Assembly (NCBI RefSeq): GCF_001618865.1 | Contig: NZ_CP015136.1 | Span: 3,941,001 to 4,005,000, forward strand | Reading direction: 5' to 3' | DNA: 64,000 bases | Origin: Luteitalea pratensis | GTDB taxonomy: Bacteria > Acidobacteriota > Vicinamibacteria > Vicinamibacterales > Vicinamibacteraceae | Part shown: piece by piece, positions 25,206 through 62,623 of the stretch | Numbering within the stretch: position 1 is the first letter of the stretch | Layout: the number at the start of each line of letters is the position of its first letter | Position numbers and translations under genes: made by a program | The notes under the pieces: model-generated | Databases searched by the model: none | Told to the model about the DNA's origin: nothing | The model's input: only the letters and a program-made list of their open reading frames with translations

Positions 25206-25338
25206 GGTAGGGACGCCTCTCCGAGGCGTCCATCAGCCTCGCCGCACGGAGAAGACGGACCCAGCCTCGCGGAACGGAGAAGATGGACCCAGCCTCGCCG
25301 CATCGAGGAGATGGACCGCTCGGAGAGCGGTCCCTACC
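25206..25338. repeat. REPIN: inverted pair of REP sequences
   Basis: The left REP begins GGTAGGGACGCCTCTCCGAG; the right one is inverted and ends GAGCGGTCCCTACC. Each forms its own hairpin, and the spacer contains two imperfect repeats of a CCTCGC/GGAGAAGA motif. The right REP tail is followed by a duplicated 21-bp unit (25329-25371). Family 1, related to the RAYT-linked array at 58438. Confidence 0.85.
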
Positions 25339-30503: not shown

Positions 30504-30586
30504 GGTAGGGCCGGCTTTCCGAGCCGGCCGTCACCAAGATGTCACGGCCACCTGCTCGACGGCCCGTTCGGAGAACGGGCCCTACC
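30504..30586. repeat. REPIN between rpiB and deoC
   Basis: An inverted REP pair: GGTAGGGCCGGCTTTCCGAG at the left, and the right half ends GAACGGGCCCTACC. It begins 5 nt after the rpiB stop codon and ends 13 nt before the deoC start, so it fills the spacer of a likely two-gene operon. Confidence 0.85.
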
Positions 30587-56028: not shown

Positions 56029-57081
56029 GTGCGCACACCCCCCTGGGCCGCGCTGCTGCTCGCGGTGGGCACGGCTCTTCTCGGCGCGCAGGCGCCGGAC
56101 CCACCTCCACCCATGAATGGCACGCTCACCGACGTCGAAGGCCTGCTCGTCGGCCACGCAGTTCGCCGTGAGCGGCCGACCGGTTGCACCGTCATCCTGG
56201 CCCGCGAAGGTGCGGTGGCTGGAGTGGACGTCCGCGGAGCAGCCCCCGGCACCCGCGAGACCGACCTCCTGAATCCGCTGAACACGGTGCAGCAGGTGCA
56301 CGCGATTGTGCTCGCCGGCGGCAGTGCTTTCGGTCTCGACGCCGCCACCGGGGTGATGAGTTGGCTGGAATCGGAAGGCATCGGCTTCAAGGTCGGGCCG
56401 ACGCGCGTGCCGATCGTGCCCGCGGCCATCCTGTTCGACCTCGGCATCGGCGACGCGCGCATCCGCCCGGATGCTGCGTGTGGACGCGAGGCGGCGATGG
56501 CAGCCTCGGCCGCGGCCGTGCCGCAGGGGAGCGTTGGCGCCGGCGCCGGCGCAACGGTGGGGAAGTTGCACGGAATGGCGCGGGCCATGAAAGGCGGCGT
56601 CGGCAGCGCCTCGATCCGCTTGCCGAACGGCATCGTCGTCGCGGCACTCGTCGCCGTCAACGCGCGTGGAGACGTCATCGATCCCACCACCGGGAAGGTC
56701 GTGGCTGGCGTCCGCACCGCCGATGGACGACACCTGGCCGACGCGCGCGAACTGCTGCGCCAGGGCGTGCCGGCGCCGGCACCGGTCGCCGAGAACACGA
56801 CGCTGGGCGTCGTCGCGACAAATGCCACGCTGACCAAGAGCGAGGCGTCGCTGGTGGCGCGCATGGCCCACGACGGCTTCGCGCGTGCCATCGCGCCGGT
56901 CCACACGCCGTCGGATGGTGACGTCATCTTCGCGCTCGCCACCGGCAAGCAGGCAGGCGTCGCGGACGTCGGCCTGATTGGCGCGCTCGCTGCCGACGTG
57001 ACGGCCCAGGCCATCGTGAACGCCGTCCAACGAGCCGATCCCCTGCCGTCGCTGCCCTCGGCGCGCACCCTCGTTCCGTGA
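56029..57081 (+). CDS. P1 family peptidase (DmpA-like, exported)
   Basis: The 350-residue protein has a signal peptide (WAALLLAVGTALLGAQA) and the P1/DmpA fold: LLVGHAVRRERPTGCTVILA near 42-61, VLAGGSAFGLDAATGVMSWL near 94-113, GAGAGATVGKLHGMARAMKG and ENTTLGVVATNATLTKSEAS with the candidate nucleophile. P1 enzymes are self-processing N-terminal nucleophile aminopeptidases. The GTG start at 56029 lies 21 nt after a REPIN. Its stop overlaps the start of the symporter gene by 4 bp (GTGA), so peptide cleavage and uptake may be coupled. Confidence 0.87.
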   Translation: MRTPPWAALLLAVGTALLGAQAPDPPPPMNGTLTDVEGLLVGHAVRRERPTGCTVILAREGAVAGVDVRGAAPGTRETDLLNPLNTVQQVHAIVLAGGSAFGLDAATGVMSWLESEGIGFKVGPTRVPIVPAAILFDLGIGDARIRPDAACGREAAMAASAAAVPQGSVGAGAGATVGKLHGMARAMKGGVGSASIRLPNGIVVAALVAVNARGDVIDPTTGKVVAGVRTADGRHLADARELLRQGVPAPAPVAENTTLGVVATNATLTKSEASLVARMAHDGFARAIAPVHTPSDGDVIFALATGKQAGVADVGLIGALAADVTAQAIVNAVQRADPLPSLPSARTLVP

Positions 57082-58445
57082 CGCTCGCCCTGCTGCTTGC
57101 CTACGCGGCAGCCCTCATCTTCATCGGTTGGTGGTCGTCGCGCCGGGCCACGGCCGCCGACTTCTTCGTCGCAGGACGCCGCCTGTCGCCGGCCCTGCTC
57201 GCCGGCACGCTCATCGCCGCCAACATCGGGGCCGGGTCCACGGTCGGTGCCGCCGGCCTCGGCTACCGCGACGGGATCGCGGCCTGGTGGTGGGTCGGGT
57301 CGGCCGGGCTCGGCTCGATGGTGCTCGCGCTTGTCGTCGGCCCACGCATCTGGCGCATCGCTGCCGACCAGGACCATCGCACGCTCGGCGACTACCTCAA
57401 GAGCCGTTTCGGTGACGACGTGCGTGCGCTCATGGCCGTGCTCCTGTGGTGCGGGTCACTGGCCATTCTCTCGGCGCAACTGATCGCCCTCGCGGGACTG
57501 CTCGAGACCGTCGCTGGCGTGCCACGCACCTGGGGCTGTGTCATCGGCGGTGTCGTCGCGACGCTGTACTTCGCCGCCGGCGGGCTGCTGTCCTCCGCTG
57601 CTGTCAACGCGGTGCAGGCAATCGTGCTGGTTGCCGGGCTCGCACTCGCGCTGCCCGCCGCATGGCCGTCCAGCGGACTCCATGCCGCGTTGCCACCATC
57701 GGTGCCCTCCGACTATTGGCATCCGTTCTCTGGCGGCTCGTCTGGTGTGATGTACCTGGCGCTCCTCGGACCGTCGTTCATCGTCTCGCCGGGATTGCTG
57801 CAGAAGGTCTACGGCGCGCGAGACGCGCGAGCGGTGCGGATCGGCGTGCTGGTCAACGCAGGCGTCCTGCTCGCGTTCGCGGCGATTCCGCCCCTGCTCG
57901 GAATGCTGGCGCGGGTGTCACACCCGTCGCTGCCGAATCACGAACTGGCACTGCCGATGCTGCTGCGGGACGATTTGCCGCCGTGGCTCGGTGGCCTGGC
58001 GCTCGCGGCGCTGTTCTCGGCGGAAGTGAGCACTGCAGACGCGGTGCTCTTCATGTTGTCCACCTCGCTCGCACGTGATCTCTACGCCGGGCACCTGCGG
58101 CCGGCGGCGACGCAGGCCGAGCAACTCCGCGTCGTGCGCGTAGCGGCCGTCGTGTCCGGCACCATCGGCGTGGCCATCGCGATCTGGGCCGGCAGCATCG
58201 TCAGAACGATGGGGTTGTTCTACAGCGTGCTGAGCGCGGGCCTGTTCGTGCCGGTGGTGGCCGGCCTCTTCGCGCGGCGTGCCGGCCGCGTCCAGGCACT
58301 TGCCGCGATGATCGCTGGCGCTGTCACCACGGCGGTCCTGCAGATCGCCACCGTTGGGGCCGGCATTGCCGGCGTCGCCCCCGTGGTCTGGGGCCTGCTC
58401 GCCTCCGCCACCGCGCTCGGCGTCGCATTGCTGGTCCGTAGGTAG
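57078..58445 (+). CDS. Sodium:solute symporter family protein
   Basis: A 455-residue SSS-family transporter with about 12-13 helices. Family blocks: FFVAGRRLSPALLAGTLIAA, then NIGAGSTVGAAGLGYRDG near 47-64 (Na+ site region), LGDYLKSRFGDDVRALMAVL, and AALFSAEVSTADAVLFMLST near 308-327. The substrate is unknown; its coupling with the P1 peptidase suggests amino acids or peptides. The last two codons and the TAG stop come from the first unit of the REP array, so the original C-terminus may have been different. Confidence 0.88.
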   Translation: MTLALLLAYAAALIFIGWWSSRRATAADFFVAGRRLSPALLAGTLIAANIGAGSTVGAAGLGYRDGIAAWWWVGSAGLGSMVLALVVGPRIWRIAADQDHRTLGDYLKSRFGDDVRALMAVLLWCGSLAILSAQLIALAGLLETVAGVPRTWGCVIGGVVATLYFAAGGLLSSAAVNAVQAIVLVAGLALALPAAWPSSGLHAALPPSVPSDYWHPFSGGSSGVMYLALLGPSFIVSPGLLQKVYGARDARAVRIGVLVNAGVLLAFAAIPPLLGMLARVSHPSLPNHELALPMLLRDDLPPWLGGLALAALFSAEVSTADAVLFMLSTSLARDLYAGHLRPAATQAEQLRVVRVAAVVSGTIGVAIAIWAGSIVRTMGLFYSVLSAGLFVPVVAGLFARRAGRVQALAAMIAGAVTTAVLQIATVGAGIAGVAPVVWGLLASATALGVALLVRR

Positions 58446-59312
58446 GGACGGCTCTCCGAGCCGTCCATCTCCGCATGGTCGCTTCTCCGTCCCGTAGGTA
58501 GGGACGGCTCTCTGAGCCGTCCATCTCCGCACGGTCGCTTCTCCGTCCCGTAGGTAGGGACGGCTCTCTGAGCCGTCCATCTCCGCACGGTCGCTTCTCC
58601 GTCCCGTAGGTAGGGACGGCTCTCTGAGCCGTCCATCTCCGCATGGTCGCCTCTCCGTCCTAGGTAGGGACGGCTCTCTGAGCCGTCCATCTCCGCATGG
58701 TCGCCTCTCCGTCCCGTAGGTAGGGACGGCTCTCTGAGCCGTCCATCTCCGCATGGTCGCCTCTCCGTCCCGTAGGTAGGGATGGCTCTCTGAGCCGTCC
58801 ATCTCCGCATGGTCGCCTCTCCGTCCCGTAGGTAGGGACGGCTCTCTGAGCCGTCCATCTCCGCATGGTCGCCTCTCCGTCCCGTAGGTAGGGACGGCTC
58901 TCTGAGCCGTCCATCTCCGCATGGTCGCCTCTCCGTCCCGTAGGTAGGGACGGCTCTCTGAGCCGTCCATCTCCGCATGGTCGCTTCTCCGTCCCGTAGG
59001 TAGGGACGGCTCTCTGAGCCGTCCATCTCCGCATGGTCGCTTCTCCGTCCCGTAGGTAGGGACGGCTCTCTGAGCCGTCCATCTCCGCATGGTCGCCTCT
59101 CCGTCCCGTAGGTAGGGACGGCTCTCTGAGCCGTCCATCTCCGCACGGTCGCTTCTCCGTCCCGTAGGTAGGGACGGCTCTCTGAGCCGTCCATCTCCGC
59201 ATGGTCGCCTCTCCGTCCCGTAGGTAGGGATGGCTCTCTGAGCCGTCCATCTCCGCATGGTCGCCTCTCCGTCCGCCTGCGGCGATGGACGCCTCGGAGA
59301 GGCGTCCCTACC
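58438..59312. repeat. Tandem array of 15 REP units (56 bp each), closed by an inverted REP
   Basis: Units start at 58438, 58494, 58550, 58606, 58661, 58716, 58772, 58828, 58884, 58940, 58996, 59052, 59108, 59164 and 59220. Each has the hairpin GGACGGCTCTCTGAGCCGTCC, 21 bases split here as GGACGGCTC-TCT-GAGCCGTCC, followed by a GCATGGTCGCCTCTCCGTCC-type linker. Units differ by few bases (C/T at ACGGC or ATGGC, CATGG or CACGG, GCTTC or GCCTC). One junction (58660/58661) lacks 2 bp. The array ends in an inverted REP (59284-59312) that overlaps the RAYT stop codon. There are no unique spacers, so it is not a CRISPR. Confidence 0.93.
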
Positions 59313-59772
59313 AGGTCCAGAAGTATGGCCAGTCGTCTGCGTCCACGGCCAGGCCGGCGCGAACCGGATTCTGGCGAAGGTACTCGAGCTTGGCTTCGAA
59401 ATGTTCGTCGCGCCTGAGCCGATGCTCGAAGAAGTCTCGCTGCCATCGGATGCGCTCAGACCTGGCGAGGTATCGCTTGAGCGACGTGACTCTGCGCTGG
59501 AGATCGGTCGACGGCGGTACTCTCGCCAGGAGATGCACGTGGTCCGGCATCACGACGCACGCCAGCAGAAGCCACGCGCCCGCCTGCTGTTGAAACCTCA
59601 GCGAGTTCTTGATGGCGTTGGCAATCCGCGGATCGCACAACTGGTTGAGCCCGCGAGGCGTTCCGCACACGGTGAGGAGGAAGATGCCGTCAGCCGTCAG
59701 CCACGTCGGCCTGCCGTGAGGCAGGCACAGTCGGTCGTGCCAGTCATCCGGCTGCGTCGGCGCAGTGGGCAT
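59308..59772 (-). CDS. REP-associated tyrosine transposase (RAYT)
   Basis: A 154-residue Y1/HUH transposase of the RAYT type. It shows DGIFLLTVCGTPRGLNQLC, the HUH metal motif in VVMPDHVHLLARVP near 74-87, FEHRLRRDEHFEAK, and the nucleophile Tyr in KLEYLRQNPVRAGLA near 128-142 before WPYFWTW. RAYTs are single-copy genes thought to mobilise REP/REPIN sequences through single-stranded DNA. REPs flank it on both sides: the tandem array downstream (its TAG stop lies in the array's closing REP) and two REPINs upstream. Length and motifs suggest it is functional. Confidence 0.92.
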   Translation of the reverse strand: MPTAPTQPDDWHDRLCLPHGRPTWLTADGIFLLTVCGTPRGLNQLCDPRIANAIKNSLRFQQQAGAWLLLACVVMPDHVHLLARVPPSTDLQRRVTSLKRYLARSERIRWQRDFFEHRLRRDEHFEAKLEYLRQNPVRAGLAVDADDWPYFWTW

Positions 59773-59902
59773 GCCTTCCCCCTGGGGCAGATCCCATGCC
59801 GTCTGTTCTGACGCGGTTGGCTTGAAGAGTGTGATCCAGAGTGCGTAATCTTCGCCACGCGATTCGACGACCGCGCGCGCAGGAATCGATCACCGCATCG
59901 TT

Positions 59903-59992
59903 GGTAGGGACCGCTCTCCGAGCGGTCCATCACGTCACGATCAGCTCTCCGCCCGCCGCTGGCGATGGACGCCTCGGAGAGGCGTCCTTACC
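59903..59992. repeat. REPIN, first of a tandem pair
   Basis: Left REP GGTAGGGACCGCTCTCCGAG, spacer with CATCACGTCACGATCAGCTC, right inverted REP ending GAGGCGTCCTTACC (one C-to-T change in the closing CCCTACC). Confidence 0.88.
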
Positions 59993-60024
59993 GTCGATGC
60001 GGCGCGGAGATGGACCGCATCGTT

Positions 60025-60114
60025 GGTAGGGACCGCTCTCCGAGCGGTCCCTCACGTCACGATCAGTTCTCCGTCCGCCTCTGGCGATGGACGCCTCGGA
60101 GAGGCGTCCCTACC
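60025..60114. repeat. REPIN, second of a tandem pair
   Basis: Repeats 59903-59992 with few changes (GATCAGTTCTCCGTCCGCCT in the spacer) at a 122-bp period. The right REP ends GAGGCGTCCCTACC, 2 nt from the stop codon of the HD-GYP gene. Confidence 0.88.
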
Positions 60115-60116
60115 TA

Positions 60117-61163
60117 TCAGAACATGCGGTCGCGCCGGGCCACAGAAGCGAACGCCGCGACGACGTCCGGGTCGAGCGCGAGGCCCGACTCGCCGCGGAT
60201 GTAGTCGATGGCCTCGTCGCGGCGGTCGTGGGCCGTTTCCCCGTGCGGATGCGTCATCGCATCGAAGACGTCGGCGACATGCGTGATGCGACCGGCCAGC
60301 GGGATGTCTCCGCCCGCCAGGCCGCTCGGATAGCCGGTCCCGTCCCAGCGTTCGTGGTGCGTGAGCGCGATGTCTTCGGCCGTCCGCAGCAGCATGCCCT
60401 TGCTGCCGGAAAGGATGTCGGCGCCGATGACGGTGTGCCGCTTCATCTCGTCGAATTCAGCGGGAGAGAGCGGTCCAGGCTTCAGCAGGATCGCATCGCG
60501 GATGCCGATCTTGCCGACGTCGTGCAGCGGCGCGGCGCGCTCGATGGTCAGGGCGGTGTCGCCGGATAGTCCCATCTCGCGGGCGACCGCGCCCGCCAGG
60601 CGGCCGACCCGTCGCGTGTGCTCGCCGGTGTTGTCGTCGCGGAATTCCGCCGCGAGGGCGAGGCGCTCCAGGATCTCCAGGCGTGCGATTTCCAGCTTGC
60701 GCGTACGTTCCTGGACCGTCGCCTCGAGCCCGCGATTGTGTTTGTCCAGCTGCAGGTAGAGAAACCGCGTAGTCAGCAGGTTACGAATGCGGAGCAGCGC
60801 CTCCACCGCGTCGAACGGCTTGTTCAGGAAGTCTTTCGCGCCGGCGCCCAGCGCCCGCTGGCGAACCTCGACGCTGAGGTCGGCGGTGACCACGAGGATG
60901 GGGAGGTAGCGCTCGTCGTTGAGCCGACCCTGAAGTTGTTGCATCACGCCGAAGCCATCGAGGCCGGGCATGTGCAGGTCGAGGAGGATCAGGTCGGGGC
61001 TGACCTGGCCCACGAGGGCCGCCACCTGCTCGGGCGCGGTCGTCGAATAGAGGCGGTGATAGCCGGCAGACGTGAGGAGTCGTTCCAGCAGGCGGATGTT
61101 CGGGGCCTGATCGTCGACGATGAGAATCCGTGCCCTGGTGATGGGCTCGGTCAGGTTCGGCAC
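60117..61163 (-). CDS. Response regulator with HD-GYP c-di-GMP phosphodiesterase domain
   Basis: From the GTG at 61163 the product is 348 residues: a receiver domain (ARILIVDDQAPNIRLLERLL; phospho-Asp in LILLDLHMPGLDG near 58; Lys in AKDFLNKPFDAVE), a coiled-coil linker (residues 125-165), and an HD-GYP domain with EHTRRVGRLAGAV, LHDVGKIGI near 223 and HHERWDGTGYPSGLAGGDIP near 275. It should degrade c-di-GMP when phosphorylated. No ribosome site is present; TATACT lies 6 nt upstream of the GTG, so the mRNA may be leaderless. Confidence 0.9.
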   Translation of the reverse strand: MPNLTEPITRARILIVDDQAPNIRLLERLLTSAGYHRLYSTTAPEQVAALVGQVSPDLILLDLHMPGLDGFGVMQQLQGRLNDERYLPILVVTADLSVEVRQRALGAGAKDFLNKPFDAVEALLRIRNLLTTRFLYLQLDKHNRGLEATVQERTRKLEIARLEILERLALAAEFRDDNTGEHTRRVGRLAGAVAREMGLSGDTALTIERAAPLHDVGKIGIRDAILLKPGPLSPAEFDEMKRHTVIGADILSGSKGMLLRTAEDIALTHHERWDGTGYPSGLAGGDIPLAGRITHVADVFDAMTHPHGETAHDRRDEAIDYIRGESGLALDPDVVAAFASVARRDRMF

Positions 61164-61169
61164 GGCCGA

Positions 61170-61175
61170 AGTATA
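61170..61175 (-). promoter_or_regulatory. Candidate -10 element for a leaderless HD-GYP transcript
   Basis: TATACT on the minus strand ends 6 nt before the GTG start codon; the -35 region is weak (AACGGA at 17-bp spacing). With the start codon at the expected transcription start, the mRNA would lack a 5' leader. The absence of a ribosome site agrees. Confidence 0.4.
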
Positions 61176-61198
61176 GGGGAGGTAGTGGCCGCTCCGTT

Positions 61199-61307
61199 GG
61201 TAGGGACCGCTCTCCGAGCGGTCCATCTCCGCATGTCGGTAAACCGAGATCGTGGACGCCTCGGAGACTTGGAGATGAGATGGACGCCTCGGAGAGGCGT
61301 CCCTACC
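61199..61307. repeat. REPIN between HD-GYP and nucleotide-sugar dehydrogenase genes
   Basis: Left REP GGTAGGGACCGCTCTCCGAG, an imperfect extra REP half (GGACGCCTCGGAGACTTGGA) and a right inverted REP ending GAGGCGTCCCTACC. It ends 2 nt from the TAG stop of the dehydrogenase gene, which is read on the minus strand. Confidence 0.88.
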
Positions 61308-61309
61308 AA

Positions 61310-62623
61310 CTACGCGCGGACGACGGTGACGGGGCCCGCTGGTTCCGCCTTGACGATGTTCCGGGTGTCCACCACGAGCGACACGCCCGCATATAACGCC
61401 GGGTCCTTGAACTGCGCGTGCGCAGTCGAGACCAGCAGGAGGTCGTAGCCGCGAAACGTCGTGTTGTCGCACGGCACCGACGAGAGGTTCAGGGAATGTC
61501 GCCGGCCGTGGCGAGCCTTGGGGAAGTACGGGTCGCAGTAGTCGACGTCCGCGCCCTTGTCCTGCAGGTACTCGATCAGTTGGTACGACGGTGACTCGCG
61601 GTCGTCGTCGATGTTCTCCTTGTACGACAGCCCGAGGACCAGCACCCGCGACCCCTTCACGCTCTTCCGGGCATCATTCAGGGCGTCGGCGACCTTGCCC
61701 ACCACGTAGCGCGGCATCGATGTGTTGATCTCGCCCGCGAGCTCGATGAAGCGCGTCCACATCCCGAACTCCGACGCCTTCCAGGAGAGGTAGAACGGGT
61801 CGAGAGGAATGCAGTGGCCGCCCAGGCCCGGTCCCGGGTAGAACGCCGTGAAGCCGAACGGCTTCGTCTTGGCTGCCTCGATCACTTCCCAGACGTCGAT
61901 CCCCATCCGGTCGAACGTGATCTTCAGTTCGTTCACCAGGGCGATGTTGATCGACCGGAAGACGTTCTCGAGCAGCTTGCTCGACTCGGCCACGCGTGCC
62001 GATGACACCGCGACGACCTTGTCCACGCCAGCCCCGTAGAGGGCCACGGCCACCTCGGTGGACGCGGGGTTGACACCACCCACCACCTTGGGAATGGTCT
62101 TCGTGCTGAACCTGGCGTTGCCTGGATCCTCGCGCTCGGGTGAAAACGCGAGGAAGAAGTCATCCGGACACGACAGGCCGGACGACTCGAGAATCGGCAG
62201 CACCTCATCGTCCGTGGTCCCGGGGTAGGTCGTCGACTCGAGCACGACCAACTGGCCCTTGCGCAGACGCCTGGCGATGGCGTTGGCCGTGTCGTGGATG
62301 TACGAGAGGTCCGGCTCACGATGTGCGCCGAGCGGCGTCGGCACGCAGATCAGGATCGCGTCGCATTCCCTGAGTTGGTCGAAATCGGTCGTGACCCCGA
62401 ATCGGCCGCGGGCGATCGACGCGGCGACCCGCTCCGACCCGATATGTCGGATGTAGGAATGCCCTCGCGAGAGCGCCTCGATCTTCGTGGGGTCGACGTC
62501 GAAGCCCCGCACCTGAAAGCCGGCCTCTTCGAAGACGAGGGCGAGGGGCAGGCCGACGTAGCCCTGGCCGATGATGCCGACGACCGCGGAACGGTCGTGG
62601 ATCCGAGCAAGTGTCTGATTCAT
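61310..62623 (-). CDS. Nucleotide sugar dehydrogenase (UDP-GlcNAc 6-dehydrogenase-like)
   Basis: A 437-residue NAD-dependent enzyme: Rossmann motif [20 protein letters not shown] near 15-34, [26 protein letters not shown] and the catalytic Cys in [20 protein letters not shown] near 270. It oxidises the C6 alcohol of a UDP-sugar to the uronate. [10 protein letters not shown]-type spacing and the PEREDPGN block fit the WbpA/UDP-N-acetylglucosamine dehydrogenase group better than UDP-glucose dehydrogenase. The product would feed surface polysaccharide synthesis. No glycosyltransferases are adjacent. Confidence 0.88.

Follow-up and report, generated by a model that had tools for sequence, protein, structure and literature searches.

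The window is the whole analyzed stretch of 64,000 nucleotides, bases 3941001-4005000 of the Luteitalea pratensis genome, which consists of one contig of 7,480,314 bases. Within it, a RAYT gene and a tandem array of repetitive extragenic palindromic (REP) sequences lie between two convergent genes. The features of the locus, in window coordinates, are as follows.

57078..58445, plus strand: SSF-family sodium:solute symporter gene (PF00474, E 8.3e-36).
58441..59274, plus strand: tandem REP array of 15 direct units (58436 is the start of the TRF period), each made up of the REP GGTAGGGACGGCTCTCYGAGCCGTCC and a spacer of ~30 nt.
59223..59312, plus strand: terminal REPIN of the array, consisting of the last left REP, the full spacer, and the inverted right REP.
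59285..59312, minus strand: closing inverted REP, stem type GC, with the RAYT stop codon inside its GTAG.
59308..59772, minus strand: RAYT (TnpA_REP) gene, 154 aa (NF047646, PF01797, 4er8).
59892..60114, plus strand: two REPINs in tandem with a 122-bp period, between the RAYT gene and the HD-domain gene.
60117..61472, minus strand: response regulator with an HD domain (HD_5), the convergent neighbor.

Analysis with TRF placed the array at 58436-59274 with a period of 56 bp, 15.0 copies, 97% matches, and a score of 1580, compared to 411 for the second-best tandem array in the window. The unit starts run from 58441 to 59223, and every unit is 56 bp long except unit 4, which is 54 bp. Over the 52 positions common to the units, the mean pairwise identity is 97.6%. 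These values bear out a preliminary description of this DNA, which had reported 15 nearly identical direct units of about 56 bp abutting a RAYT gene, and the single inverted REP that it had placed across the RAYT stop codon is also there. Identical variants recur at a distance: one is common to units 2, 3, and 13, and another to units 7 and 15, both of which have one C>T within the REP stem. The idea that neighboring units are clearly the most alike did not hold up, the difference from shuffled order being not significant (P = 0.07, or 0.12 without unit 1). By eye, the repeated segment consists of a few bases of the flank on the SSF side, the left REP, and part of the spacer; it reaches into the end of the SSF gene, its start not being at GTAG, and ends before the right REP. 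The SSF gene closes with a TAG stop codon that lies within GGTAG of the first REP. At the founding junction is GTCCG, a 5-base match between the upstream flank and the spacer, with one extra C. This match is not special, five 5-mers being common to flank and spacer, and it is not put forward as a founding microhomology. In the terminal REPIN, the left REP is of stem type GG, with the C>T giving a T-G pair, and the right REP is of type GC; this REPIN is 79% identical over 101 nt to the neighboring REPIN. Finally, a perfect unit has zero stop codons in any minus-strand frame, as had been stated for the unit, but in the array itself one of the three minus-strand frames is interrupted by a single stop codon.

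Judged by its sequence, the RAYT is a member of the TnpA_REP proteins, an assignment that draws on a curated model, the HUH and Tyr positions, and the flanking GTAG REPs. The protein passes the NCBIfam model NF047646 (REP-associated tyrosine transposase) with 94.7 bits against a cut-off of 80, and it scores 27 bits with the IS200 model, which is under the cut-off of 55. Matches were also found to PF01797 (E 1.1e-7) and to the solved TnpA_REP protein 4er8 (E 2.2e-8). The HUH motif (H78/H80) and Y131 are invariant across 10 aligned sequences and are aligned to 4er8 as well; Y131 is presumably the catalytic tyrosine corresponding to Y115 in Escherichia coli. GTAG REPs flank the gene on both sides, which is the REPtron arrangement. 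Its relatives, of which the best 80 of 91 were analyzed, come mostly from genomes titled Verrucomicrobia or sub-groups, along with some Acidobacteria and others. As a separate observation, the GG and GC types of REP also occur, in identical form, in a Spartobacteria metagenome-assembled genome (MAG; L031, 4800-5500), where they surround a RAYT that is only 39% identical. A genome-wide Y1_Tnp search returned three places: the array RAYT, a second RAYT-like gene that is 51-52% identical (L108, G000:C1:1497499), and a broken Y1 gene (L109, G000:C1:2122613). No tagged hairpin was found in the stretches scanned at the latter two.

The GTAG REP has a GTAG tag 5′ of a short palindrome, and the changes in its stem are compensated. 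A genome-wide search with the REP pattern gave 213 matches, compared to 0 for the reversed control. The identities that the preliminary description had given to the REP and the RAYT are supported. Three self-complementary stem types, CG (81), GC (75), and GG (54), cover the 210 exact REPs, with 0 in the reversed control for each. At 200 bp, the exact REPs form 104 clusters; 40 of these have two members, 39 of them with GTAG outside, and 50 REPs are single. Of 60 genomes searched (own included), three contain the exact REP, and the same three are the ones whose RAYT is at least 55% identical. Identical arrays in genomes without the RAYT, a case that the preliminary description had raised, were thus not found as such. 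A slightly looser pattern gave 218 matches in the own genome, 18 in G004, and 3 in G001, all of the same genus. RAYT matches at E 0.001 or better were present in 25 of the 60 genomes, and those beyond the three at least 55% identical are weak. In G001 and G004, the hairpins on the flanks of the RAYT are likewise of the GTAG kind; they begin GTAGGG, and the loop is TCC in six of the seven. In a survey of 55 of the 80 RAYT loci (the other 25 being mostly weaker or partial matches), a GTAG or GTGG hairpin was found within 700 bp at 28 loci, compared to 43 of 537 control windows. Because hairpins occur at RAYT loci and the exact REP is confined, among the 60 genomes, to those with a RAYT at least 55% identical, the REP family and the RAYT belong together.

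A special link between the array and the RAYT is not supported. Confinement of the array to the RAYT locus was considered and rejected, since four other tandem REP or REPIN arrays sit 63 kb to 3.2 Mb from the array RAYT. One of them, 1.5 Mb away, is a second array of ~15 copies (5517769-5518777), with 14 exact and one near-exact direct copies at steps of 65 to 67 bp, one of them irregular; it carries its own variants and ends in one inverted GC-type REP. By eye from translations, it lies between TonB-receptor-like and oxidoreductase-like ORFs (L112, 4770-5817). Another array has 5 copies of 55 bp (4063481), and the last two are tandem copies of a whole REPIN, one of 177 bp in 5.9 copies (4605353; L106) and one of 175 bp (832445; L107). 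In L111 (2500-2570) and L106 (2829-3752), half a REP (GGTAGGGACCGCTCCGTT) is repeated in tandem with 18 bp per copy, which looks as though copying had reversed at the hairpin loop. No RAYT was found by tblastn in the loci of these arrays (6 to 10.5 kb, with 10.5 kb for the 5517769 locus) or in any of the seven loci L105, L106, L107, L111, L112, L114, and L115, and none of the genome-wide Y1_Tnp matches falls at the four other arrays. Therefore, arrays do not need an adjoining RAYT, although the RAYT could still act from a distance. One of the two longest direct arrays of the genome does adjoin a RAYT, and this adjacency is the usual REPtron arrangement.

Some trends were apparent among these repeats. 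First, 10 of the 14 clusters with at least three exact REPs are made of direct REPs of the same type closed by one inverted REP of another type, the arrays at 4063481 and 5517769 being among them; this count rests on exact matches, and three of the 10 (1255902, 7155213, and 7353808) were counted without close inspection. At least one of the 10, cluster 4000903 (window 59892-60114), is two tandem REPINs in which the inner REP has one mismatch. Of the other four, 832445 and 4605353 alternate, and 581841 and 3535333 are of mixed make-up. Second, an extra REP half is present in 14 of 39 REPIN spacers compared to 0.1 expected from base-shuffled spacers. Third, some repeat breakpoints fall inside a hairpin (L106, L107, and L112, by eye). 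Both the extra REP halves and the breakpoints inside hairpins are signs that slippage at hairpins is widespread in this genome.

The array is probably a case in which, within a REPtron between convergent genes, the left half of a REPIN was amplified by slippage or unequal exchange, for which the RAYT would not be needed. The RAYT gene, with its cognate GTAG REPs on either side, is set between the two genes, and an ordinary REPIN (left REP, spacer, and inverted right REP) on its downstream side would have been the starting state. Head-to-tail duplication would have involved the left REP together with part of the spacer and a few upstream flanking bases, and this duplication may then have grown to 15 copies through replication slippage or unequal exchange, aided by the stable hairpin in each unit. 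The anatomy, the REP family, the RAYT membership, and the lack of a nearby RAYT at the other arrays are seen directly in the sequence, whereas the growth process and any activity of the RAYT are inferences. Multi-unit exchange probably took part besides single-step slippage, because variants recur at a distance and neighbors are not significantly more alike. The RAYT itself most likely dispersed REPINs over the genome, as the literature would suggest, and it would not be needed for local expansion. The preliminary description had proposed a recent expansion, either by slippage or by RAYT action on single-stranded DNA. Tandem duplication is supported, and "recent" is plausible from the 97.6% identity; of the two proposed processes, slippage (or exchange) is the better fit. 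A known type of repeat has expanded locally here, and the array is not a new system.

It is unlikely that the RAYT built the array by cutting single-stranded REPs, joining the excised units or circles head to tail, and reinserting them beside its own gene. The array does abut the RAYT, and REPIN clusters lie beside RAYTs in Pseudomonas fluorescens SBW25 (PMC3116915); tandem REPs or REPINs likewise flank RAYTs in other genomes (L019 and L026). Yet the loci of the distant arrays are without a RAYT, which counts against this explanation only in part, because a RAYT can act in trans. In vitro, TnpA_REP acts on REPs in single-stranded form (PMC8266576); it is capable of both cleaving and rejoining REPs (PMC6006769), and circular intermediates were proposed for complex arrays (PMC3733652), but the half-REP copies and the breakpoints inside hairpins speak against such an origin here, as does a repeated segment that includes end bases of the SSF gene and does not start at GTAG.

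Related genomes bear on the history of the site. The SSF gene is beside the HD-domain gene in three of four other genomes of the same genus (G002, G003, and G004), and in these three the RAYT is absent between the two genes and the gap leaves no room for an array. The stretch of G001 examined around the SSF gene showed no HD gene. By eye, a single related REP sits at the extreme end of the SSF gene in G004, so that the REP at the SSF end may be older than the RAYT arrival and the array expansion here. As a side observation, the window also holds a second REP family of the GGTAGGGCC type, an inverted pair with two different stems (30504-30531 and 30559-30586), which resembles the REPs beside the RAYT of G004. 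It is quite improbable that the array is under selection for a role at the 3′ ends of the two convergent genes, in transcription ending, mRNA protection, or supercoiling: such roles of REPs are named in PMC3733652, and the array does lie between the genes with both stop codons inside, but in G002, G003, and G004 the same genes are neighbors across their short gap, with one REP at the SSF end in G004. Inflation of the copy number by the assembler is hardly credible, for although 15 near-identical units are difficult for short reads and the array is known from assembled sequence, the genome is in one contig, the units carry variants and include one of 54 bp, and the second long array has variants of its own. 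Amplification by slippage or unequal exchange is thus the reading that we prefer.

The two arms of the REPINs follow a further trend. The same stem type was found twice in 0 of 39 two-member inverted pairs (CG/GC 31, CG/GG 5, and GC/GG 3), compared to 15.8 same-stem pairs expected by shuffling and a minimum of 4 in 200,000 trials. Examples of REP pairs with differing stems within the window are at 25206-25338 and 61199-61307. In the RAYT loci of other genomes (those of the 80 relatives), 30 inverted pairs have their members less than 250 bp apart, and 29 of these differ in stem, at 18 of 19 loci; L022, with a matching pair, is the sole exception. Some of these loci are akin, L018 and L044 being from one genome and L005 from the same genus as the window. 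L130 has a GC/GC inverted pair whose members are not neighbors, a CG REP lying between them. A founder effect could account for 0 of 39 in one genome, but the 18 of 19 other loci argue against it as the whole reason.

Folding energies predicted for single-stranded DNA offer a simple, testable reason for this trend. In this genome, the long form, paired arm to arm, is favored over two hairpins by a mean of 2.1 kcal/mol (SD, 3.7), with two hairpins lower in energy for 11 of the 39 pairs; these are neighboring pairs from 40 regions, some in triple clusters, and thus a set that overlaps with but is unequal to the 39 two-member clusters of the stem counts. For 29 pairs of other genomes, the long form is favored by 0.9 kcal/mol, with two hairpins lower in 13. 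Natural pairs are thereby predicted to lie close to balance in the mean. When one arm was copied over the other, the long form was favored by ~15 kcal/mol in both sets, and two hairpins were never lower. The REPIN at 59901-59994 is predicted to fold as two hairpins. It is possible, although less likely than not, that selection keeps the arms different in this RAYT clade, where the RAYT would need both REPs individually folded, with two distinct ends. In the inner stem, the arms typically differ by one to three compensated base pairs (for L026, L045, and L055, 5 to 7 differing positions were counted, which is too many because the stems had been trimmed by one base); this difference would avoid a lock into the long hairpin and leave the own stem of each arm perfectly paired. 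Several observations run against this rule. Matching inverted REPs at wider spacing (>250 bp and hence uncounted) bracket the RAYT in L006 and L010, and the two REPs around the G001 RAYT have one and the same stem. Moreover, where the arms differ by a single base pair, the long form is still favored, by a predicted 5.7 to 9.1 kcal/mol in five pairs from other genomes, as it is in the terminal REPIN of the array, which is predicted to fold long at -35.6 kcal/mol.

The preliminary description had held that REPs normally occur singly or as inverted pairs, which is incomplete. For SBW25, tandem arrays of REPs and of REPINs have been published, as have REPIN clusters adjoining RAYTs (PMC3116915), and tandem reiteration of REPs with their flanks is described in PMC3733652; the locus is therefore a known structure in a new place. 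No published account of this array was found in a literature search that took in few subscription papers, nor, in the same literature, a paper with "Luteitalea" together with "repetitive extragenic palindromic." As a clean and countable REP expansion, the array could be of use as a variable-number marker for the species. The arm rule bears on RAYT recognition and on the movement of REPINs. If true, it would answer why REP dimers are so often heterodimers, a preference for which the consulted sections of PMC3733652 give "no obvious explanation."

The closest likeness is to SBW25, for which PMC3116915 describes direct REP arrays with even spacing, arrays with as many as 12 REPs, tandem REPINs with flanks, and a REPIN cluster beside each of three RAYTs. 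Unlike in SBW25, one arm is present 15 times in the array described here, the bacterial group is a different one, and the arms are of different stem types, whereas the doublets of SBW25 are typically identical REPs and rarely mixed (PMC3116915). The GGTAGGGACGGCTCTCYGAGCCGTCC REP is not named in the consulted sections of PMC3733652, which deals with GTAG REP families and clusters. The locus also resembles the E. coli REPtron and BIME, in which inverted REP pairs made of the related types Y and Z2 lie on the flanks of the TnpA_REP gene (PMC6006769 and PMC8266576). However, the E. coli REP in these accounts is an imperfect palindrome with a bulge, whereas here the stem is perfect and one arm has been amplified.
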